A stretch of DNA of 36,926 nt from a virus, in IMG/VR virus record IMGVR_UViG_3300010430_006923, positions 1-36,926 of that record, one strand, 5' to 3'. Below, one piece after another: positions 1 through 36,926 of the stretch. The notes beneath the pieces were generated by a model. The model did no database searches. It had not been told where the DNA came from and saw only the letters and a program-made list of their open reading frames with translations. Position 1 is the stretch's first letter. The number at the start of each line of letters is the position of its first letter. The position numbers were made by a program, and so were the translations under genes.

Positions 1-3000
1 CTAGGTTAGGGTGTTCCAGCTGCCGCTGTTCTTTCGCCACTCGAGGCTTCCGCCGTTTTCGCGGAAGTCGATGTCGACAATCCCGGAATCGTCGTAGCGC
101 AGGCGCACGTAGCCAGAGGCGAGCGTCCCCTCGAAGAGGTCGCCTTTCACGATATTGTCCGAAACGATGTCGCCCGCCGCGCTGATGTTCCCGTTGGCGC
201 GGACTTCCGAGGCCGCGTTGCGGAAAAAGTAGGTGTCGGTGCTTCCGACGTAGAGATTCGACGACACGAGCAACGAGTCTCCCGAAAGCGTCCGCAGTCG
301 CGAAGCCGCGTCCCGCGAGAAGCCAGCGTCCCGCGAGCTCCCCACGTAGAGAGTCGCAGCGACTTGCAGCGAGTCGTCGGTTTTCAAGATGCTTGCCGCG
401 TCCCGGTAGAGGTTGGCGTCTGTCCCCCACCATAGCTTGTGGTCCGTGTCCAGAGTCAGATCTCCGTTTTTCAGATCGAGCCCGCTATCGTCGAGGAACG
501 CGTAGGTGCCGAGAGACTCGCTCCCACCAGCGTAGAGCTCTATGCGCCCGGTAAAGTTTGTCGCGTCCGCGACCATGGCCTTGTCGGTTCGCATGGCGAT
601 TACCGGGCCGTTGGACCAGGGGGTGGTAGACCCGCCGTTGTGGCCGTGGGACCGGATGCGCATGATGTAGTCCGAGCTCCCGATCGCCGTCTTGCTGGCA
701 AAGGTTCCGTTGGCTTTGTCGAAATCCACCAGGTTCTGGTTGGCGATGGCGAGCGAACCGAACCCAGTCGGAGAGCCGTCACCATGCTGGGTGAAAACGC
801 CTCTAGCGATCGAGCTCGCAGCGCCCTCCCAAGTCTTTTTCGAAGCGTCGGTCGTAACGACAATATTGTTCCGGACGCTCAAAAGATTGTCGGTGCCGAT
901 CTCGACGTCTCCGAAGAACTTCGCGTTGCCTGTATCCCGCTCGATTGCCCATCCCACGCCGGTCGAAGCGTTGAAATTGTCGCTCTGGATGTCGGTCCCG
1001 AAGTTGATCGTCCCTACGGGAGCCTCGAAGTCGAGGGTCTGGGAGCCGCCGAAGGTGGCCTCGCTGATATGGTAGCGGCTGGACCAGTATTTCTTGGTGG
1101 TGTCGGTGATGACGACTTCGACGGGCACGATCTGCCAGTTGGCGGGCAGCCCGGTGAAGTCCCCGGTGGTGAAATTGTAGCTGGTGGCAGACGGCGTTGC
1201 GGGGGCGCTTGCCTGGCTGACCGTGTAGTAGACGATGCCGGTCGCGTTTCGCGGGCCGTCGGCTCCGTCCGAACCGTCGGCTCCGTCAGCCCCATCCGAG
1301 CCGGGATCCCCTTGAGCCCCCGTGGCGCCGGTCGCGCCCTGCGGACCCTGTGGCCCTGTGGCCCCGGTGGGGCCCGTGGGGCCTGTCGCGCCGGCGACTC
1401 CCTCGCCTGCCAGCACCCAGTCCACCTGGAAGTCGATTTCGGAATCCACGCCCGCGCTGGACCGGTAGATGACGGTACCAGAGACGGACAGCTTCTTGAC
1501 CCCGTCCGTGTGGGTGGCGAACCCGAGCTCGCCCGAAGCCCCGACCGAGGCGGCGCTGCCGCCCGTGTAGACAAGGCCGGACTTGTAGCGCCAGCGGTCG
1601 TTCGTGGGAGTGGCGTCGTAAGTCTTGAGGTCCGACCCGAGCAGGACGGAGGGGGTAATCGTCTTCCCCGCCGGATCGTAGTCGGAGTAGTCCGCGTTGA
1701 CGGTCTCGAAGTAGGCGGGGGAGAGCACGTTGAGCGCGGCGGAGACCGACAGCGGATCCACCGCGATCGACCCCACGTCGGCGGAGACGTTTTTGGCGTA
1801 GTCGACCGCCTCCACCCAGACATACCAGGTCGACCCGGCAGCTGCGGGCAGCGTTATCTCGCTCCCCCGGGTCCACTGGCTGGCGCTGGGCTTGGAGTCG
1901 GCGCTGTTCAGGTAGACTTTGTAGTGCCAGATGTCGTCTTCGGTAGGCGGGTCCCATTTCACGTGGACCGTGTCGTAGCCAGCGGTGACCACGACGCTGG
2001 TGGGCGCCTTGACGTATATGTCGTCAAAGGTGAACTCGTGGCCGGAGACCGTACCGATGTCGAGCCCGACTCCGAAATGGGTGAAGGACTGGATCTTGAA
2101 GTACCGGCTGGCAGCGGTGTAGGGGAAGTCCTCGTGGCGGAGGAACTCCAAGTCGGAGCGGAAGACGAGCCACGCTTCCGAGTCCAGGGCGTGAGCGGCT
2201 GCTTCGGAGCCTTTGCGCCCACGAAGCACGTGGAGGTTGAACGCGTCCCCAACCGCAGCCGTGATCGAGCCGACGGACATCACTTCGTCTCCCGCGATGA
2301 GCAGAAGGGTGTCGTCGGCGCGGGCCTCGTCGGTCTGGGAGATCAGCAGCCCGGTGTCGATCCCCTGCGGGGAGACCGGGAGGATGGACCCTCCGGCGGT
2401 AATGGCGGTGTCGAATGTGACGGACAGGGCGAAGCGCTTCAGCTTCCCAATCTCGGAGTAGGAGCCATCGTCGCTGGAGTAGTGCACCGCAGCGCGGGTC
2501 GTATGCTTGTCGGGACGGTCCGCCAGGAGGAAAACGGCGGGAAGGTTTCCGCCCCACGGCTTGGACGGCTGGAAGAAGCGGAAACTGGAAAACGCGGCTG
2601 GCTCGGGCGGCTTGAGGCTCGGGCGGGCCACCGGCTCGTAGGGGAGCGCCTTAGCCTGGATGCCGTGCTCCTGGACGAGGTGGATCACGTGCTCGAGCAG
2701 CCCGGGATCGTAGTCGATGCGCATGATGCGCGCCACCAGATCGAGCGACAGCGGGGAGTACTGAAGCCGGAACCGGGATCCCGGCCCGAGCGCGTTGGCG
2801 TCCAGCCACGAGGCGAGCACCGGGGCCTTGCCGCTGAATCTCGGCTTCGAGCGCTCCGCAAGGTAGCGCACCTTGTATTCGTCCGCCTGGTACTTGGTGA
2901 TGAAATTGGTCTTGTCGAGCGTCTCCTTGCGGATTTTCTGCGCCCGCTTCTTCGAGGCGAGGCTTCGGTGCTTGGCGGCGGTCTCCTTGAAGCCCTGGGC

Positions 3001-14565: not shown

Positions 14566-15141
14566 TCAGGCGGGAGCGGCGCCGGTGACGACGTCGAGAA
14601 CCGGGCCGTGCCAGTTGGACTTGGAAGGGTCCATCACGAACTCGACCGTGGCGTTGGAGGCGTTCTGCCCGTCGTGGGGCATGTCACCGAGGAGGGTCAC
14701 CGACACGTAGCACTTGACGATGCGCTTGGCGGACACCTCCACATTCGAGGTGGGAGTGGCGAAGGTGAGCTTGTTCTCCGGGTTGACGATGCCCATGAAC
14801 GCCCAGAAGTAGTACGTCTTGCCGGGGCTGAGGGTGTTGTTCTCCCCGAGCATCAGCTCCAGGAGGGCGTCCTTGATGTCCTTGACGTCTGCGGAGACCA
14901 GCGACACCGGCTTGACCTTGCGCTTTTCGGCCACGTAGACGGTGCCGTCGTTGGCCTGGTCGAGTATCTCCAGCTCGTCGGCGGAGATGTTGAGCGAGCT
15001 CTCCGGGGTGCGGCAGAAGGCGTCCGGGTAGGCGGCTTCGAGGGACGTGTAGTCGGTCACTCCCGTGATGTCAGGCTCCGCTACGGAGCCGGTGTCCCGC
15101 TTGAGCAGGATGAGAATCGAGCCTATGTGTGTGTCTGGCAT
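14566..15141 (-). CDS. Major tail (tube) protein
   Basis: A 191-residue protein with the length, beta-rich texture and position of a siphovirus tail tube subunit: two genes after the head-completion proteins and directly before the chaperone pair. Strand-like segments include KTYYFWAFMGIV, KLTFATPTSNVEVSA and RIVKCYVSVTLLGDM. The C-terminus ends in Ala-Pro-rich residues. ATG 15141 is preceded by two copies of ACACCA and no Shine-Dalgarno site. The tube protein polymerises around the tape measure from the tail tip. Assignment rests on context and size rather than a sharp motif. Confidence 0.75.
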   Translation of the reverse strand: MPDTHIGSILILLKRDTGSVAEPDITGVTDYTSLEAAYPDAFCRTPESSLNISADELEILDQANDGTVYVAEKRKVKPVSLVSADVKDIKDALLELMLGENNTLSPGKTYYFWAFMGIVNPENKLTFATPTSNVEVSAKRIVKCYVSVTLLGDMPHDGQNASNATVEFVMDPSKSNWHGPVLDVVTGAAPA

Positions 15142-29278: not shown

Positions 29279-29524
29279 CTAGGAAGCCAGCCGGTAGGGG
29301 TCTGCCTTGTCCAAGTCCCTCGACGAGGGCCTCGATTCCGTCGAGCGCTTCGGAGAGGCTCCGAGGCTCCCCCGCGCCATGGCCACAAACAGCCGCTGGG
29401 CCGCCTCCTCCAGAGACAACCCCAGGTAGTTCGCCTCCACCCGTATCCGCTTTTCGATGTCGGGAGGCAGGGCGATCTTCACGCGCGGCAGCTCGCCCCA
29501 CGAGTCTAAAAGGTCTTTCTTCAT
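29279..29524 (-). CDS. Ribbon-helix-helix protein with likely frame switch near the C-terminus
   Basis: The frame encodes 81 residues. The first 55 form an RHH domain: strand LPRVKIALPPDIEKRIRVEA, turn NYLGLSLEEAAQRLFVAMAR. After the G-run at 29369-29373 this frame turns into low-complexity sequence (SPKRSTESRPSSRD). The -1 frame continues with a natural-looking SLSEALDGIEALVEGLGQG and stops at 29256, overlapping the ASCH start. A one-base slip on CGG GGG AGC would join them into a protein of about 90 residues. This could be programmed slippage, a natural frameshift mutation or an assembly error. DNA-binding regulator by fold. Confidence 0.6.
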   Translation of the reverse strand: MKKDLLDSWGELPRVKIALPPDIEKRIRVEANYLGLSLEEAAQRLFVAMARGSLGASPKRSTESRPSSRDLDKADPYRLAS

Positions 29525-30018: not shown

Positions 30019-30882
30019 CTACAGCGGAACCGCGAGACTCCTTTCGGCGTTTCCCTCCAGCAGCCCGCTAAAAATGTCCCCCGCATGCACGAACAGCCCC
30101 GTCTTCTCCGCGATCGAGTCGCGGATTCTGGATACGGCCTCGCGAAGCGCCTCTTCCAGCCGCAGAGGCCGGATCATGAAGCCCACCGAACCCCCGTGCA
30201 GCTTCCACCGCAGCAGGCACTCGATTTCCACCAGCTCGCCGCCGGCGAAGAGAGACACCTGCACCGCTATCCGGCTCGGCACGTCCAGATCCCCCGCCTT
30301 TCCGGTGGTCGTCTCCTTGTAGGACACGTTCCACCCGCCGTCGCTCTCGCGCTGCACCGAGCTGAAGTCCACGTTCCGGGTCGCCTCCAGCTCCCGGGCG
30401 ATCGTAAGGATCTCCGAGGCCGAGTGGCTCGACACCTCGTGGGCGTGGTCCTCCAGCCATTCGGCCAGCGCCATCTGGTCCACCCACCGGTGAAAAGCCT
30501 GCTGCCACGACTTCAGCTCAGGGCTCTTCACCAGCTCCAGCTCCGCGAAGTGCGCGCACGTCTCCGCCTCCTCGCTCGAGCTGTGGTAGTCGATGCACGC
30601 GCGGAACCGCATCCTGCGCGGCTCCACCCCGAGCATCGTGCGGTGGTTCCTGAAACGGTTCACGTATTCGGAAAACGAGTCCGGCTCCTCGAACAAGGCC
30701 CGCGCCGCCGGAGCCGGGTCCAGATAGTCCTTCAGCGAGACCAGGCTGATCCCGGCGGGCACCGCCGCGAAGGGGGCCGCGAAAGCCTCGCCCTCCCCGT
30801 CCTCGGTGAAGATTCTCACGTTTTGGGCCCCTTGGGCCAGGTCCTCTATTTTGCCGATCGCCTCGGCTGTCAGTTCGCTCAT
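30019..30882 (-). CDS. DUF2303 family protein
   Basis: A 287-residue protein of the DUF2303 (YfdQ-like) family found in many temperate phages' early regions. The pattern AEWLEDHAHEV plus SRIAVQVSLFAGGELVEIECLLRWKLHGGSVGFMI is characteristic. The N-terminal part contains FMSEYVNRF-like sequence (FSEYVNRFRNHRTM) and ACIDYHSS. It is paired with a small acidic protein just upstream by an ATGA overlap, a pairing often seen for this family. The molecular function is unknown; a recombination or replication accessory role has been suggested only by context. Confidence 0.75.
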   Translation of the reverse strand: MSELTAEAIGKIEDLAQGAQNVRIFTEDGEGEAFAAPFAAVPAGISLVSLKDYLDPAPAARALFEEPDSFSEYVNRFRNHRTMLGVEPRRMRFRACIDYHSSSEEAETCAHFAELELVKSPELKSWQQAFHRWVDQMALAEWLEDHAHEVSSHSASEILTIARELEATRNVDFSSVQRESDGGWNVSYKETTTGKAGDLDVPSRIAVQVSLFAGGELVEIECLLRWKLHGGSVGFMIRPLRLEEALREAVSRIRDSIAEKTGLFVHAGDIFSGLLEGNAERSLAVPL

Positions 30883-31297: not shown

Positions 31298-32008
31298 CTA
31301 CAGAAACGCCAGTTGCTTGGTCTCCAGCGTGATTCGCTCGAGAGCCTTTCTAAAATAGTTGCCGTCCAGCTCAGCCGCCACCAGATCGCACCCCGCATAG
31401 TGGGCGGCGATCGCTATCGACCCGCTCCCAAGATGCGTATCCAGAATTTTCATCCCCCGGCGGGCGAATTTCCCGATAAGCCACTTGTAGAGCGCCACCG
31501 GCTTTTGCGTGGGATGGATTCTCTTCTCCCTGAGACTCATGTCCCCACAAGCCCGAGTCCCGGCAGACTCGCTCCCCTGGAACATCCCGTTCCACATGTA
31601 GCGGAAAATCCTCACCGACTTCAAAGAGGAGCAATACGCCAGCTCGCAGTCAGAGAAATTCGACGCGCCATTGACCTTGTCCCAGACTATTCGCCCCGGG
31701 CCGATGCCCGGCATGTCGAAGTAGTTGACGCCCCAGACAATCTGCTCTTTCGACACTCTGAAAAGCTCCTCGAAGTATTCTTTTCCAGGCACGTCCCAAC
31801 TCTTTATCGAAGGGTATCCGTTTTTCGGCACTCTGAGCTGCCCGGGTTTGTAGGCAGTCGTCCGTCCATACCAGGCAGCCCGGTCAGGACCCTTGAAGTA
31901 CGGCGGATCCACGATCGCCAGATCGAAGTATTTGTCCGGAAACTCGGCCATCAGGTCCATGCAATCGCAGTTCCTTATATTCAAACTATCTGTGCCCATC
32001 CGTGTCAT
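31298..32008 (-). CDS. DNA N6-adenine/N4-cytosine methyltransferase (beta class)
   Basis: A 236-residue methyltransferase. The catalytic motif IV DPPY is at 34-37; HPTQKP (165-170, motif X) and ILDTHLGSGSIAIAA (188-202, SAM-binding motif I) follow, the order of the beta class. Orphan phage enzymes of this kind protect DNA from restriction or mark it for regulation; no restriction partner is nearby. The start codon at 32008 is supplied by a chromosome-type repeat (31989-32030); a second ATG at 31999 is also within it. Target sequence cannot be read from the protein. Confidence 0.87.
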   Translation of the reverse strand: MTRMGTDSLNIRNCDCMDLMAEFPDKYFDLAIVDPPYFKGPDRAAWYGRTTAYKPGQLRVPKNGYPSIKSWDVPGKEYFEELFRVSKEQIVWGVNYFDMPGIGPGRIVWDKVNGASNFSDCELAYCSSLKSVRIFRYMWNGMFQGSESAGTRACGDMSLREKRIHPTQKPVALYKWLIGKFARRGMKILDTHLGSGSIAIAAHYAGCDLVAAELDGNYFRKALERITLETKQLAFL

Positions 32009-32030
32009 CCGTGGTTGAAAAAAAACTCAG
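31989..32030 (-). repeat. Chromosome-type intergenic repeat, copy 1
   Basis: The first of three copies of an element that on the coding strand begins at the stop codon of the upstream gene (TGA), continues with a run of eight T, then AACCACGGATGACACGG and GCACAGA. Here it contains the ATG codons used to start the methyltransferase. Its tandem 9-mer (CATCCGTGT, CATCCGTGG on the plus strand) resembles dispersed repeats known from bacterial chromosomes. Confidence 0.8.
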
Positions 32031-32221
32031 TCGTCATCGTCTTCATCCCCACCGCAATTGTCGCACCGGTGCTTGGCTCCCGCCCATCCGCCGCAAGCAG
32101 TCCAGTGGAACACGCTCCCGCATTCCCCGCAGACTCCAGAACCGGTTTCGTCAACCGGCTCATCGCACACGCAGCAATCGCCACAGTATTCAAAATCCTC
32201 ATTCACATCCTCGAAACTCAT
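32027..32221 (-). CDS. RING/PHD-like zinc protein
   Basis: A 64-residue acidic protein with nine cysteines and a histidine in zinc-finger spacing: Cys16-x2-Cys19, Cys31-x2-Cys34-x4-His39-x3-Cys43, Cys53-x2-Cys56, plus Cys13 and Cys17. The VCGECGSVFHWTAC segment is like prokaryotic RING or eukaryotic PHD fingers, which cross-brace two zinc ions. It ends in a run of Asp. The start ATG 32221 lies at the end of repeat copy 2 and the stop lies in copy 1. A protein-protein adaptor role is likely; a ubiquitin-like pathway link is speculative. Confidence 0.65.
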   Translation of the reverse strand: MSFEDVNEDFEYCGDCCVCDEPVDETGSGVCGECGSVFHWTACGGWAGAKHRCDNCGGDEDDDD

Positions 32222-32261
32222 CTGCGCCCATCCGTGTCATCCGTGGTTGAAAAAAACTCAG
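32221..32261 (-). repeat. Chromosome-type intergenic repeat, copy 2
   Basis: The second copy, nearly identical to copy 1 over about 40 bases (GCGCAG in place of GCACAG, and one T fewer in the T-run). It fills the space between the stop codon at 32258 and the start codon at 32221, with the same orientation and the same phase relative to the upstream stop codon. Confidence 0.8.
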
Positions 32262-32512
32262 TTCCTCTCCGGCTCCATCGCGGACACCGTGAACCTCACG
32301 CCCGCGCGCACCCCCATCAGGGCCCCCGGGGCGCAGTCCCCCTTCTCCAGGACGATCTGCAGCTCCATCTTCGTGGCAGTCGCCCCGCCCGAATTCACAA
32401 ACCCAGTGGCGGCCCGCTCCACGGCGTCCACCAGCCGGGCCGAAAAACCGCCCTGCCCCAGCACGCTGCCGCAGATTTGCTCCACCACGTTACTCACTTC
32501 CTCTTCAGTCAT
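32258..32512 (-). CDS. Hypothetical protein
   Basis: An 84-residue protein with a helical start (TEEEVSNVVEQICGSVLGQGGFSARLVDAVERAATGF) and a strand-like second half (ATATKMELQIVLEKGD, AGVRFTVSAM). I chose ATG 32512 over the TTG five codons upstream. It lies between the exonuclease and the zinc-finger gene, and its stop codon is part of repeat copy 2. The family is not recognised. Confidence 0.6.
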   Translation of the reverse strand: MTEEEVSNVVEQICGSVLGQGGFSARLVDAVERAATGFVNSGGATATKMELQIVLEKGDCAPGALMGVRAGVRFTVSAMEPERN

Positions 32513-32534: not shown

Positions 32535-33164
32535 CTAGTCCTCCCGCCCCGAGCAGGTCGCAGGCTTCGAGAGCATCCCCTCCAGCTGCCCGGCCTTCAG
32601 CTGCAGCGCAGCCAGACGGTCCGCCAGCAGACAGTGTATCCGCATCGCGTGCCTCGCGCCTTCGAGCGCGTTGTGCACCTCCGGCTCGTCGGGGATCCCC
32701 AGCTTTTTGTAGTACTCGTAGATCGAGTACTCCGGGTTCTCCACGCACTCGCCATCCGCACAGGCCATCAGGTAGGCCTCCGAGTGCACGTCCACCACCC
32801 GCCCGTGGAAAGGCAGCTCCACGCAGTCGCGGCGGCGCAGAAACCCCACGTCGAAGCCCGGGTTCTTCCCCACCACCCGGTATTTCCCGTAGGTGTTCCC
32901 GTAGGCGTCCGGCTCCGTCAGCCAGGTCTTCAGGGCGACGAGCGCCCCCCGCTCCAGCGGCTTTCGCGGGTCGCGGAAGTCCGCCATCGTGAACCCGTTC
33001 ACCTCCAGCGCCCTCGGGTGCGGGTCGCGCACGTACTGCGGGCGGCACTCCATGTAGAACTCGCCCTTGGCGGCGTGCGCCGCCCCGACCGAGCAGATGC
33101 CGTCCTGCTCCGGGTCCAGCCCCGTCGTCTCCAGGTCCAAGAAAAGCTCGCTATCGTCTGGCAT
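32535..33164 (-). CDS. DnaQ-like 3'-5' exonuclease (DEDDh), last Asp missing
   Basis: A 209-residue nuclease of the DEDDh fold. Motif I LFLDLETTGLD gives Asp10 and Glu12, motif II GKNPGFDVGFL gives Asp105, and motif III HNALEGARH gives His164. In active members the fifth residue after that His is Asp (HxAxxDA); here it is Gly169. The protein may therefore have lowered activity or use Glu168 instead. It resembles the phage and Rv2179c-like single-domain exonucleases. It overlaps the upstream RHH gene by 14 bases. Possible roles are degradation of host nucleic acid or RNA processing. Confidence 0.82.
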   Translation of the reverse strand: MPDDSELFLDLETTGLDPEQDGICSVGAAHAAKGEFYMECRPQYVRDPHPRALEVNGFTMADFRDPRKPLERGALVALKTWLTEPDAYGNTYGKYRVVGKNPGFDVGFLRRRDCVELPFHGRVVDVHSEAYLMACADGECVENPEYSIYEYYKKLGIPDEPEVHNALEGARHAMRIHCLLADRLAALQLKAGQLEGMLSKPATCSGRED

Positions 33165-33426
33165 AGGAAAGCTGTTTCAGGAGCCCCTCTCTCCGCTTCG
33201 GGTCCTTCACGATTTTCAGCACCTCCGCGCTTTCGCGCGCCTCCCGGTCCTCTTCGCACACCGGAGGGCAGCCCTGCTCCATCCACCACTGGTAGACCAG
33301 CGCCCCGTAGGCGCTTTTCGAGAGCCCGAGGCCACGGGCGTACTGCTCTATCTCGACCGCCAGGGCGGGCGACACCCGCGCGTTGATCTGCGCAGGCATG
33401 GGAGGAGGTTTCATCTTAGAGGGCAT
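33151..33426 (-). CDS. Ribbon-helix-helix protein with WxxGxPxV-type tail
   Basis: A 91-residue RHH-type regulator. INARVSPALAVEIEQYARGLGLSKSAYGALVYQ forms strand, helix, turn, helix, and it ends in the family motif WWMEQGCPPV shared with other small proteins in this region. A charged helical tail follows (EEDREARESAEVLKIVKDPKRREGLLKQL). Starts at 33426, 33414 and 33399 are possible; the first is used here. RHH proteins bind DNA as dimers through the N-terminal strand. Target and role unknown. Confidence 0.7.
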   Translation of the reverse strand: MPSKMKPPPMPAQINARVSPALAVEIEQYARGLGLSKSAYGALVYQWWMEQGCPPVCEEDREARESAEVLKIVKDPKRREGLLKQLSYARR

Positions 33427-33634: not shown

Positions 33635-33674
33635 ACGCTTTCTCCGCTGTTGATAATCGATGTATCCAAAAACA

Positions 33675-33725
33675 TCTGTGCAAATCCGTGTCATCCGTGG
33701 TTTAAAAAAACAAAAAAAAATTCAG
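33675..33725 (-). repeat. Chromosome-type intergenic repeat, copy 3
   Basis: The third, more diverged copy: the stop codon of the HTH gene, then an extended T/G run, then AAACCACGGATGACACGG followed by GCACAGATG. It lies in the same orientation as the other two, again starting exactly at a stop codon. The ORF of the next gene could start within it (ATG 33694), but a better ribosome site lies downstream. Confidence 0.75.
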
Positions 33726-34027
33726 AACCGCCTCACTCCCTTGTATTCGTCCAGAGACTTCCGCAGCACCTTGATGGGCGATCCCCGCTTGCCGCGCCCC
33801 ACTCCCGGCAGCTTGCGCCGGGGCAGTATTTTCAGCACCTTGCGCTGCACCAGGTCCAGCACCGTGTCGCGGCTGCACTGCAGCTCCTCGGCCACCTGGG
33901 CCACCGTCAGCACCTCCGGCCTCGGCCGCCGCAGCGAGGCAAGGCTCTCGATGCGAGCCGAAAGCGCCTCGATCCTCTCGTTCTGGGCGTCGATCCGCTC
34001 CAGCAAAGCCTCCTGAAACTCGGTCAT
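33722..34027 (-). CDS. MerR/excisionase-like helix-turn-helix protein
   Basis: A 101-residue protein with an N-terminal coiled coil (EALLERIDAQNERIEALSARIESLASL) and a DNA-binding domain at about 40-100. LTVAQVAEELQCSRDTVLDLVQ is the helix-turn-helix, followed by KVLKILPRRKLPG and a wing with PIKVLRKSLDEY, the helix_turn_helix_17/excisionase pattern. The ATG overlaps the upstream stop (ATGA). It may be a transcriptional regulator or an excisionase; no integrase is in the window to support the latter. Confidence 0.75.
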   Translation of the reverse strand: MTEFQEALLERIDAQNERIEALSARIESLASLRRPRPEVLTVAQVAEELQCSRDTVLDLVQRKVLKILPRRKLPGVGRGKRGSPIKVLRKSLDEYKGVRRF

Positions 34028-34350: not shown

Positions 34351-34682
34351 GTACAGCCCTCCCCGTTGGCCTTTTTCACTCGCGCTTCCAGCGTGTCCAA
34401 TGGTAGCAGATACACATGCCCATACCCCACGCTGAAATCGCCGACAAGATCGTCGAACTTGGATTCGCTTCCAGTTACGTCTACAACCAGAACATTCGCG
34501 CCTTCGACTTCGCCTTTACGGACCGAGGCCAGCGCCTCCGTGAAGACCTTAAATCCGTTCTTTCTGCCGTCAAACAGCAGGACGGCCCGGACGGTCGCAA
34601 TCTGGCAGCCTTCATCGGTCTGCTTGCGCTCCCCGAAGACGAAGGCCTCTACCTCGGCTAGCTTCACCCGGCTCAAGGCCAC
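34344..34682 (-). CDS. Hypothetical protein
   Basis: A 112-residue protein with alternating strands (EVEAFVFGERK, CQIATVRAVLLFDGRKNGFKVFTEAL, GANVLVVDVTGSE, YGHVYLLPLDTL). It is probably a small alpha/beta fold. It ends in CTC. The start is GTG 34682, supported by GGAGGAGGG seven bases upstream, one of the few strong Shine-Dalgarno sites in the window. It overlaps both neighbours. I do not recognise it. Confidence 0.6.
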   Translation of the reverse strand: MALSRVKLAEVEAFVFGERKQTDEGCQIATVRAVLLFDGRKNGFKVFTEALASVRKGEVEGANVLVVDVTGSESKFDDLVGDFSVGYGHVYLLPLDTLEARVKKANGEGCTC

Positions 34683-34960
34683 TGGTCCCTCCTCCGTCCG
34701 CGAACCCGGCGGGCAGCCCGTATCAAATCCTCATTGTGGTATCCAGTGGCCGAGTACGATATTACGGCCCCCAGGCCGCACGCCGCCAGCAGGCAGCACA
34801 GGGCCACCTTGCCCGCCAGGTACGCCCTCAGAAGCTTCCGCATCAGCGCCGCCTTCGAGATGTCCAGCTCAAACGCCCGGCGCCCCAGATCCCGCGACAG
34901 CTCCAAGTCCATAGGGACCCCCACGATCACCTTGCCCTCGCCTATCGGGTGAGTCGCCAT
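34673..34960 (-). CDS. Ribbon-helix-helix protein with C-terminal membrane segment
   Basis: A 95-residue protein whose first 54 residues are a close paralogue of the next gene upstream (31 of 54 identical, both starting MATHPIG). The RHH region is KVIVGVPMDLELSRDLGRRAFELDISKAALMRKLLRAYLAG. Unlike its sister, it continues with a hydrophobic segment VALCCLLAACGLGAVISY (about 52-69) and a basic tail, so it may tether DNA to the membrane. The start region (34941-34962) is nearly identical to that of the sister gene, showing a tandem duplication. Start and stop overlap as TAATG. Confidence 0.68.
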   Translation of the reverse strand: MATHPIGEGKVIVGVPMDLELSRDLGRRAFELDISKAALMRKLLRAYLAGKVALCCLLAACGLGAVISYSATGYHNEDLIRAARRVRGRRRDQWP

Positions 34961-35148
34961 TATCGCTTTCCCTCCCTTTTCTCAGGCAGAGCTATCTCGC
35001 CAGCAAGGTAGCCCTCCAGAAATCGCCGGGCGATTTCCGCCTTCGAGACGTCCAGCGCGAACGCGCGGCGTCCCAGCTGTCTAGCAACCTCCTTATGCAC
35101 GGGAATTGACAAAAGTGTCTTGTTTTTTCCTATCGGGTGAGTCGCCAT
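34960..35148 (-). CDS. Ribbon-helix-helix protein, tandem duplicate
   Basis: A 62-residue RHH protein, MATHPIGKNKTLLSIPVHKE followed by VARQLGRRAFALDVSKAEIA and RRFLEGYLAG. It ends in a short charged tail EIALPEKREGKR and lacks the membrane segment of its duplicate. I chose ATG 35148, which overlaps the upstream stop by one base (TAATG) and matches the sister gene's start. Likely a dimeric DNA-binding regulator; it could form heterodimers with the membrane-bound copy. Confidence 0.7.
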   Translation of the reverse strand: MATHPIGKNKTLLSIPVHKEVARQLGRRAFALDVSKAEIARRFLEGYLAGEIALPEKREGKR

Positions 35149-35486
35149 TATTCGGATACCCCTATTTCTACCTTGCGCTTCCGGGCTTCCAGCAGCGCGT
35201 CGTCCACCTCGTCTACAGGCGGGCATCCGTCGGCAAACCACTTGTCGACGATGGCGATAACCATGGCGTCGCCAGTCCTCTGCAGATCGTAGGCTCGAAG
35301 CGCGATCTCGGCTACCGCCTGCGCGGTTTCCCGCCTCTTCGCCAGCGCGAGCAAGTCAGTTAGAATGTCCCCCGAACCTTTCTCGAAAATCGGCAGGTAA
35401 CGCTCAGCTATGAACTTCAGGAGATCGGAGTGCTTCCTGAGCAGGTCCCCATACTTTTGAAGCTCCTGAATCTCACCGGGCTTCAC
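35148..35486 (-). CDS. Helical protein with WxxGxPxV motif, divergent RHH relative
   Basis: A 112-residue helical protein. Its second half, LRAYDLQRTGDAMVIAIVDKWFADGCPPVDEVDD, aligns with the helix-turn-helix part and WxxGxPxV tail of the RHH proteins at 33151 and 35855, but a clear N-terminal strand is missing. The first half (IQELQKYGDLLRKHSDLLKFIAERYLPIFEKGSGDILTDLLAL) is an added helical part. The start is GTG 35486, overlapping the upstream stop (GTGA). Probable regulator or antagonist of the RHH proteins; function unproven. Confidence 0.6.
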   Translation of the reverse strand: MKPGEIQELQKYGDLLRKHSDLLKFIAERYLPIFEKGSGDILTDLLALAKRRETAQAVAEIALRAYDLQRTGDAMVIAIVDKWFADGCPPVDEVDDALLEARKRKVEIGVSE

Positions 35487-35689
35487 GCGACCTCCTCCTT
35501 TGCAAAGTCGGCGCCGTCTACATCGATCGGATGAACCTTCTTCATCCCCCGCTTAAACCACTCCTCTACAATTAGTGAGGTGAACCGAGTCGGCGACATC
35601 GACATCCGCTCAGCGCGTTTCCGGATGGCCGAGGTGATCTCGCTCGATACGTACCCATTCACAGGCTCCTTTTTGACGGCTTCTCCCAT
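35483..35689 (-). CDS. Ribbon-helix-helix regulator, leftward member of a divergent pair
   Basis: A 68-residue RHH protein and the first gene of the large leftward operon. KKEPVNGYVSSEITSAIRKRAERMSMSPTRFTSLIVEEWFKRGMKKVHPID aligns along its length with the rightward gene at 35855 (shared PVNGYVS, RA, KVHP/AVHP). PVNGYVS would be the DNA-contacting strand. The ATG at 35689 has no Shine-Dalgarno site; a -10-like element ends 15 bases upstream. It probably autoregulates the intergenic region it shares with its paralogue. Confidence 0.72.
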   Translation of the reverse strand: MGEAVKKEPVNGYVSSEITSAIRKRAERMSMSPTRFTSLIVEEWFKRGMKKVHPIDVDGADFAKEEVA

Positions 35690-35854
35690 AGTTTTATTAA
35701 AACAATAGAAGGAGTGAAACGAGCCCCGTCAAGCGGAAATTATACTTTTATTAAATTAATGGACCGGCTTTGCCCGCTTTACAAAACTTTTAAAGGAACG
35801 TGTTCCCTGAATTTATTACTTTATTATTTCAGAATCGCAGGCGATCATCGGGCC
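35690..35854. promoter_or_regulatory. Divergent AT-rich control region
   Basis: The 165-base space between the divergent RHH genes is much more AT-rich than the rest. For leftward transcription, TTGACG (35727-35732) and TCTATT (35704-35709) are 17 bases apart; a TATAAT hexamer is at 35739-35744. Candidate operators are the direct repeat TTTTATTAAA (35692-35701 and 35746-35755), the palindrome ATTAAATTAAT (35750-35760) and GGAACGTGTTCC (35795-35806). A rightward promoter is not obvious. Confidence 0.6.
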
Positions 35855-36361
35855 ATGTCTTACACTGACCCGCCGCGCAAAAAGCCCGTCAACGGCTACG
35901 TGTCCGTTGAACTCGCAGACTTCATCGCTCACCGCGCGAAGCTTCTCGACTTCAAGGTCACCAAGTACGCGAGCCTCATCCTCGAGCACTGGTACGACTC
36001 CGGCGCGCCCGCAGTTCACCCGAACGAGTACGGGTACAACAAGCCAGCAGGCGAGAGCAACGCGCCCCGACATGAAGACGAAATGCGAGACGCCGATTTC
36101 ACCTTCGAGGAATTGCTTCCAGAAATAGACACCGTTGCAGAAGAGCAGGCCGCATACACACCCCCGATCTCTACCCAGCTCGACTACTTCGCCAAACAGG
36201 ATGAGGACCGCAGAAAGAAGGCCCTGGTCATCCTCCAAGCTCTGGAGGACAACGAAGAGGCTTTCCAAGGGTTTTCAAAGTTGCTCGACGCAATGGCCCA
36301 CCTCGTTAAAAAAAATCCAGACTGGGGCAAACCTGACTCCGGAGAAGAACCAAAAAAGTAA
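35855..36361 (+). CDS. Ribbon-helix-helix regulator, rightward member of divergent pair
   Basis: A 168-residue protein on the plus strand. Residues 8-60 (KKPVNGYVSVELADFIAHRAKLLDFKVTKYASLILEHWYDSGAPAVHPNE) are an RHH domain paralogous to the leftward protein at 35483. The remaining 110 residues are acidic and helical (TFEELLPEIDTVAEEQ, ALVILQALEDNEEAFQGFSKLLDAMAHLV) and may mediate oligomerisation. I start it at ATG 35855 since this aligns with its paralogue; the frame is open back to a GTG at 35714 but that part is not protein-like. Likely regulator of the same control region. Confidence 0.72.
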   Translation: MSYTDPPRKKPVNGYVSVELADFIAHRAKLLDFKVTKYASLILEHWYDSGAPAVHPNEYGYNKPAGESNAPRHEDEMRDADFTFEELLPEIDTVAEEQAAYTPPISTQLDYFAKQDEDRRKKALVILQALEDNEEAFQGFSKLLDAMAHLVKKNPDWGKPDSGEEPKK

Positions 36362-36380
36362 TCCTAGCCCTAGATGCTCC

Positions 36381-36812
36381 ATGCCCAAAAAGTGGAGAAA
36401 CGACCCCGCCACCAAGTCCCAAATCCGCTACCTCAAGAGGCTTGGGGTCACTTTCCCTAAAGACATCTCGAAGGGGATGGCCAGCGACCTCATCGAGAAG
36501 GCAATAGCAGGACAGCCCGCCGACTTCGAAACCCGCGTGCAGCTGCTCTTCCTCGGCATCAAGCACCCAAAGAACATCACCGACGGAGCCGCCAGGAAAC
36601 TCATCTCAGAATTCGACGACATCGATCGCATCGAGGCTTACGATGAGTGGATCCACCTGCGCGAAGAGGAGGAGATCCGCAAAATGGACAAAGAGATGGA
36701 GGATGAATTCCGCTCGGAAGAAAAACCCGAGTCCCGCAACTACGGCTGCCTCATCGCACTGGCCATACTGGCCGCCCTGTTCTTTCTCACAGCCCTCTTC
36801 GAGCGACAGTAG
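36381..36812 (+). CDS. Small protein with N-terminal SAP-like helix region and C-terminal membrane anchor
   Basis: A 143-residue protein transcribed with the rightward RHH gene, 19 bases downstream. The N-terminus, ATKSQIRYLKRLGVTFPKDISKGMASDLIEKAI, follows a pattern common in phage and plasmid proteins (T-x-x-Q-x-x-Y/L-x-x-L-G with helix-extension-helix), often linked to nucleic-acid binding. A charged helix (EEEEIRKMDKEMEDEFRSEEK) leads to a C-terminal membrane segment CLIALAILAALFFLTALF. It may be a membrane-tethered DNA-binding protein. Unknown family. Confidence 0.6.
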   Translation: MPKKWRNDPATKSQIRYLKRLGVTFPKDISKGMASDLIEKAIAGQPADFETRVQLLFLGIKHPKNITDGAARKLISEFDDIDRIEAYDEWIHLREEEEIRKMDKEMEDEFRSEEKPESRNYGCLIALAILAALFFLTALFERQ

Positions 36813-36818
36813 GCATAC

Positions 36819-36914
36819 CTAGAGCCCGCTCGCGTCCACCTTTTCCGCTTCCAGCTGGAGCCGCTCTTTTTCCGCGAGCTCGGTCAAAGGGCTGTCGATG
36901 TAGCGAATATCCAT
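36819..36914 (-). CDS. 31-residue ORF or 3' end of a gene running past the window
   Basis: On the minus strand, ATG 36914 opens a 31-residue frame (MDIRYIDSPLTELAEKERLQ, LEAEKVDASGL) that stops at 36819, convergent with the plus-strand gene ending at 36812. The sequence is charged, helical and protein-like. The frame stays open to the window edge, so it may be the tail of a longer gene. No terminator is visible in the six-base space between the convergent genes. Confidence 0.45.
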   Translation of the reverse strand: MDIRYIDSPLTELAEKERLQLEAEKVDASGL

Positions 36915-36926
36915 AGTTATATCCAC

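Follow-up and report, generated by a model that had tools for sequence, protein, structure and literature searches.

Toward the right end of virus record IMGVR_UViG_3300010430_006923, two genes, A and B, are transcribed divergently from the two sides of an AT-rich spacer (Table 1). The window analyzed here is the entire record of 36,926 bases. Its PHROGs matches comprise terminase, portal, head protease, major head protein, tape measure, and tail proteins, together with a primase, an HNH endonuclease, a methyltransferase, and an exonuclease-like protein; all of the PHROGs-matched ORFs and nearly all scanned ORFs are on the minus strand. The recognised replication and virion genes lie leftward, behind A, and the only rightward ORFs with any gene support are B and the ORF downstream of it. 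The virus likely has a verrucomicrobial host, since the terminase relatives in genomes come from 14 loci of which 13 are labelled Verrucomicrobiota (the remaining one Bacteroidales), and a Puniceicoccales MAG locus, L048, has the most window proteins in common among 18 compared loci (8; 6 each for L050 and L054), with gene sharing limited to virion genes. The terminase is positioned mid-record and the record is one contig, possibly a fragment, so genes beyond its right end may be missing. Across the window, Shine-Dalgarno cores were found upstream of just 2 of the 23 minus-strand gene starts examined, and the base A is favoured at -3 to -5 (at -3 in 13/23), which suggests that translation initiation in this record is Shine-Dalgarno-independent. 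Additionally, a 60-nt sequence form, ATCTGTGCCCATCCGTGTCATCCGTGGTTGAAAAAAA, occurs between early genes in three dispersed copies (31988-32047, 32220-32279, and 33674-33733; 100, 80, and 60% over 60 nt), which may be a dispersed repeat of host type or a cassette carrying a promoter or leader.

Table 1 Coordinates of the A/B pair, its spacer, and the neighbouring ORFs in the window
Feature	Position	Strand	Description
C	33151-33426	-	91-aa third RHH paralogue, strand QINARVS
D	34673-34960	-	95-aa paralogue of E with hydrophobic C-terminal stretch
E	34960-35148	-	62-aa RHH-like protein, MATHPIG subgroup
F	35148-35486	-	112 aa; C-terminal half matches the family's two helices and WFADGCPPV tail
A	35483-35689	-	68-aa RHH protein, heads leftward genes
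Spacer	35690-35854	.	Common to A and B, AT-rich, candidate control region
Direct-repeat copy 1	35688-35709	+	Candidate operator, touches A start codon; 18/22 to copy 2
Palindrome GTTTTATTAAAAC	35691-35703		
Direct-repeat copy 2	35742-35763	+	Candidate operator; start-to-start spacing 54 bp from copy 1
Palindrome GGAACGTGTTCC	35795-35806		
Third related sequence, weaker	35809-35826	+	18 nt, 78% to 35736-35753
Palindrome ATCGCAGGCGAT	35834-35845		
B	35855-36361	+	168 aa; N-terminal RHH (about residues 7-60) and acidic, mostly helical C-terminal region
ORF downstream of B	36381-36812	+	143 aa, one C-terminal predicted membrane segment

Both ORFs were confirmed with the coordinates and strands of the initial annotation, their starts separated by 165 bp, and the paralogy that it proposed was borne out as well. 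A and B align ungapped over 49 aa with 22 identities (45%; blastp E about 1e-14) and have in common the PVNGYVS motif and a W...G...VHP tail; judged by sequence, they are true paralogues. The C-terminal region of B has a pI of 4.5. Two upstream in-frame starts, GTG 35714 and ATG 35759, would lengthen B and were rejected: the family profile does not start until residue 7 of the form beginning at 35855, and the extension is AT-rich (40% GC) and carries no recognised similarity. The ORF downstream of B follows after a gap of 19 bp; its hydropathy reaches 2.66 at residues 122-140, and its residues 5-48 are similar to part of the helicases of Streptomyces phages (best E 2e-3).

The spacer stands out in composition and in repeats, much as first described. 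Its 165 nt have 37.6% GC, as against 61.7% for the whole window, and in a scan of the record in 5-nt steps, each of the nine 165-nt windows with the lowest GC overlaps it. The 10-base repeat TTTTATTAAA has its only two occurrences in the window at 35692 and 35746; ten exact bases were reached in 6 of 200 dinucleotide shuffles, making this repeat alone mildly unusual. It extends, however, to a 22-nt repeat with 18/22 matching positions, which was matched in 0/200 shuffles, in 3/1500 dinucleotide shuffles of a larger run, and in 2/500 second-order Markov sequences, and of which the spacer holds only two good copies. Palindromes were likewise found, at the positions listed in Table 1. The leftward promoter candidate proved weak: a sigma-70 consensus scan of 35400-36926 returned no promoter (the host's own promoter consensus may differ), and a relaxed scan gave a leftward TTGACG-17-TCTATT at 35732-35704, along with a TATAAT at 35744-35739 that lacks a good -35. 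Rfam gave no match on 35400-36926. Taken as sequence, the spacer is a credible shared control region of A and B.

An RHH fold had been proposed for both proteins. For A this is supported by a predicted model and by the family profile; for B, the model is of low confidence (mean pLDDT 60.6; helices 18-30 and 35-48), and a Foldseek search with the whole chain found no RHH match, so that the putative fold of B derives mainly from its similarity to A. The model of A, predicted from a three-row alignment, is of moderate confidence (mean pLDDT 66.6, with the first 20 residues at about 43-65) and shows helices at residues 16-28 and 33-46 after an extended N-terminal stretch, in which DSSP assigns no strand to the single chain since a lone chain is unable to pair its ribbon. 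Foldseek hits 1-4 with this model were CopG chains and Arc came fifth and seventh, none with a significant E-value; VIA-align gave modest Z values of 4 to 5 (4.4 to CopG 2cpg and 4.3 to Arc 1bdv, over 43 residues), and RHH antitoxins occur among the structural matches. At the profile level, the 12-row family profile A6 matched five PDB sequences, with CopG at E 0.0017, MazE6 at 0.01, and Arc at 0.18, and with just three rows the profile gave CopG at E 0.2; PDB searches with B, F, and E, each alone, yielded no RHH protein. As modelled, A resembles the CopG and Arc RHH proteins. None of the Pfam or NCBIfam RHH models reaches its cut-off for A or B, and short divergent RHH proteins often miss these curated models.

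The predicted DNA-reading strand, PVNGYVS, is identical in A and B at 7/7 residues. Its codons differ at 6 of 21 nucleotides, all synonymous, and because the seven residues are identical despite these six differences, the duplication looks old and the strand looks to have been held by selection. When the 22 identities were shuffled over the 49 columns, a run of at least 7 arose in 5.7% of cases, so by this test the strand conservation is modestly unusual, which is suggestive and not conclusive. In the family profile, PVNGYVS of A and B lines up with QINARVS of C and QFNLRWP of Arc, whose Gln9, Asn11, and Arg13 contact operator DNA according to the available text of PMC12645479. At these contact positions A and B have Pro, Asn, and Tyr, and C has Gln, Asn, and Arg like Arc. 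We infer that A and B recognise a common set of sites, different from those of C, and the identical strand predicts common operators for A and B; it fits either competition between the two or the formation of heterodimers.

A and B are not an isolated pair, as three or four more RHH-like ORFs adjoin on the minus strand: C, E, F, and probably D, for a total of five or six within 3.2 kb. An A2 profile search of the record matches A, B, C, and F, and a wider profile adds E clearly and D weakly, which places C, F, E, and probably D in the same group as A and B or in a sister group. C is linked to B at a phmmer E of 2e-6 and to A at 7e-5, and reaches 19.9 bits with a NikA-like Pfam model, below the cut-off of 27. 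F is linked to C (phmmer E 3e-5) and to the A2 profile (E 4.3e-4), with its likeness confined to the helical half and its strand not recognisable. E is 55.6% identical to D over 54 aa and scores E 2.1e-11 with the wide family profile, among whose rows are E itself and other family members; the wide profile finds D at a weak E of 0.019. D has a 19-residue hydropathy of 2.08 at residues 49-67, a stretch that its paralogue E lacks, and is possibly a membrane-tethered DNA-binding protein.

The arrangement of these genes suggests that A, F, E, and D form one operon, because they overlap by only a few bases (GTGA between A and F, with the F start on the A stop, and TAATG both between F and E and between E and D). 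An identical 23-nt stretch lies over the starts of D and E (34941-34963 and 35129-35151), accompanied by an 88% 40-nt repeat, and the D/E region looks like an apparently recent tandem duplication. The further RHH-like genes nearby could instead be the actual regulators, a point against the main reading of A and B given below. A seventh RHH-like ORF spotted by eye, at 29279-29524, was dropped after profile and PDB searches gave it no support. Also among the leftward genes, at 33722-34024, is an HTH_17/excisionase-like protein (Pfam HTH_17 E 3.5e-8; TIGR01764 23.7 bits, below the cut-off of 28.8). PADLOC produced weak matches only, to Csx18 (D) and mad1 (the HTH_17 protein).

From this combined evidence, we consider it about an even call that A and B work as a divergent regulatory pair in the manner of Arc/Mnt, with the leftward early promoter under their control. 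In this reading, two RHH regulators that arose by duplication are transcribed divergently from a common AT-rich control region, and since their DNA-reading strands are identical, the 22-nt repeats would serve as common operators for homodimers of either protein and perhaps for A-B heterodimers. One candidate operator overlaps the start of A, and binding at the operators would silence the leftward promoter, from which the early genes and probably most of the others would be expressed. A, being small and made early, would chiefly restrain the operon it belongs to; in B, the additional acidic helical region would make for a stronger or longer-lasting repressor or provide a contact with a cofactor. 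Such regulation might serve lysogeny or only the timing of the lytic programme. The genetic switch envisaged in the initial annotation is plausible and not unprecedented: its paralogues, divergent layout, and repeat-bearing AT-rich spacer all stand, but an integrase or recombinase for lysogeny was not recognised by PHROGs or Pfam among the scanned ORFs of this possibly fragmentary record.

That gap weighs on the proposal that the pair is the primary lysis-lysogeny switch of the virus, with B in the CI position as prophage repressor, A in the Cro position as lytic repressor, and the ORF downstream of B as a lysogeny gene of superinfection-exclusion type. Several observations would suit such a switch, namely the restriction of supported rightward ORFs to B and its neighbour, the placement of recognised replication and virion genes leftward behind A, the single C-terminal membrane segment of the 36381 ORF, and the excisionase-like HTH_17 protein. 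We nevertheless regard it as unlikely, given that a prophage with A/B-type genes was not found either, and that P8625, a distant terminase relative with a verrucomicrobial host, is described as lytic in the available text of PMC4642752. Even further out, and in our estimate a long shot, is a primary lysis-lysogeny switch made wholly of two same-operator RHH paralogues, in which the decision would depend on how A homodimers, B homodimers, and A-B heterodimers are balanced on the shared sites, unlike switches of two proteins with different operator preferences; F, having no recognisable strand, would then be a possible dimer-poisoning partner.

Searches for relatives of A and B led to bacterial chromosomes rather than to other viruses. 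Whether the query was B, A, the DUF2303 protein (30019-30882), the major head protein, the A+B alignment, or a C-like alignment, scans of the viral collection confirmed no close relative; in the same collection, TerL found 35 loci (23-49% identity over the best segment) and the primase 4. When A alone was searched against 20 of these records, none matched. With the A2 profile, one record of 23 others, G007, gave two weak matches (E 1.9e-4 and 1e-3), which on inspection by eye were taken not to be RHH genes: one is an ORF that directly follows its terminase and the other an open frame of 39 codons. In the phage and plasmid collections B was unmatched in both and A was unmatched in phages, no counterpart of the pair was seen by eye in the early regions of L044, L050, and L051, and none of the related viruses examined has the A/B divergent arrangement. 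Within the phylum, 23 of 387 genomes have family matches with E no greater than 0.001, although the match in one of them (G177) is by eye a LacI-like protein and not RHH. At 1e-6 family matches occur in 13/372 genomes of one order and, with the A2 profile and without a positive control, in 0/213 and 0/386 genomes of two other orders. The twelve loci that we read (L091-L093 and L104-L112) carry a single RHH gene, mostly among ordinary-looking chromosomal genes, and Verrucomicrobiota proteins of the MATNPIGK type resemble D and E. By sequence similarity, the relatives of A, B, and C are orphan genes on Verrucomicrobiota chromosomes. In L104, the relative at 1399-1671 (minus) sits directly upstream of a gene that by eye looks like a Y-family (DinB/UmuC-like) polymerase, and an SOS link of the RHH family is possible from this neighbour.

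This distribution, together with the five or six RHH-like ORFs within 3.2 kb, would also suit a host-derived cluster of small accessory DNA-binding proteins that interfere early with host transcription or defence, for which mutual regulation of A and B is unnecessary. We find this improbable, as a divergent placement of two strand-identical members around the lowest-GC, repeat-bearing spacer is how local regulators are typically arranged. Centromere repeats of plasmids are known targets of RHH proteins, and a NikA-like model finds 4 of the 12 family members (best E 5.5e-5) and, weakly, C; it is nonetheless very improbable that ParG-, Omega-, or NikA-like segregation or relaxosome proteins bind the spacer repeats as a centromere or origin, since there are just two good repeat copies and the scanned ORFs include no recognised ParA, ParM, or relaxase. 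Equally hard to credit is a toxin-antitoxin pair of B and the 36381 ORF, which the antitoxin-first order at 19 bp and the RHH antitoxins among the structural matches of A might evoke, as Pfam, NCBIfam, and PADLOC returned no toxin family and the sole antitoxin hint, a RelB model at E 0.04 and below cut-off, falls on the 36381 ORF itself.

Should A and B turn out to share operators, the pair would offer a compact natural test of a switch whose two competitors have the same DNA-reading strand and differ only elsewhere. It would also give the arc/mnt design a second instance, with no recognisable relationship to the first, from a bacterial phylum whose phages have been little studied. Otherwise, the locus documents a phage cluster of small RHH-like genes and its link to a Verrucomicrobiota chromosomal family.

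The initial annotation knew of no described switch of this design, a claim that fails on Salmonella phage P22: immI combines divergent paralogous RHH repressors, overlapping promoters, and mutual repression, and a divergent RHH-paralogue phage control region is thus already established. In the P22 annotation, mnt (minus) and arc (plus) lie 90 bp apart, the Arc and Mnt operators are annotated, and the promoters overlap (14793-14821 on the plus and 14798-14826 on the minus strand). According to the available text of PMC11016777, Mnt acts as the repressor of both arc and ant, Arc as that of mnt, and immI has a modulating role in the choice between lysis and lysogeny; the corresponding text of PMC8022706 places immI between genes 16 and 9 in the late operon. 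The accessible portions of the literature on RHH-based phage switches and on Verrucomicrobia phages contained P22 material and nothing on this phage. The A/B locus resembles immI in having two divergent paralogous RHH genes (45% over 49 aa for A and B; 47.5% identity over 40 aa for Arc and Mnt), a short control region between them (165 bp here), and one longer partner (B with 168 aa; Mnt with 83 aa). Unlike Arc and Mnt, however, A and B show no significant pairwise similarity to either protein (blastp best E 0.19), and they are not recognisably descended from them. No antirepressor (ant) family was found after A, where F, E, D, and others follow; A heads the leftward genes, whereas immI lies inside a late operon; the reading strands of A and B are identical; and more RHH-like genes adjoin. 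The A/B region may work like immI, to which we liken it without classing it as a member, owing to the missing Arc/Mnt homology and antirepressor.

Other known systems share single traits with the locus. CopG plasmid repressors are the best PDB profile match of the family and among the top structural matches of A; where CopG works alone as an autoregulated repressor, A and B form a divergent pair. As in lambdoid CI/Cro, a gene in the repressor position faces the first gene of a lytic operon, here with RHH in place of HTH proteins and with no integrase recognised. The orphan small RHH proteins of Verrucomicrobiota belong to the same family as A, B, and C, yet they occur singly at the loci read. 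Against this background, what is new here is the identical predicted reading strand in A and B, the position of A at the head of the leftward genes, and the cluster of sister genes.
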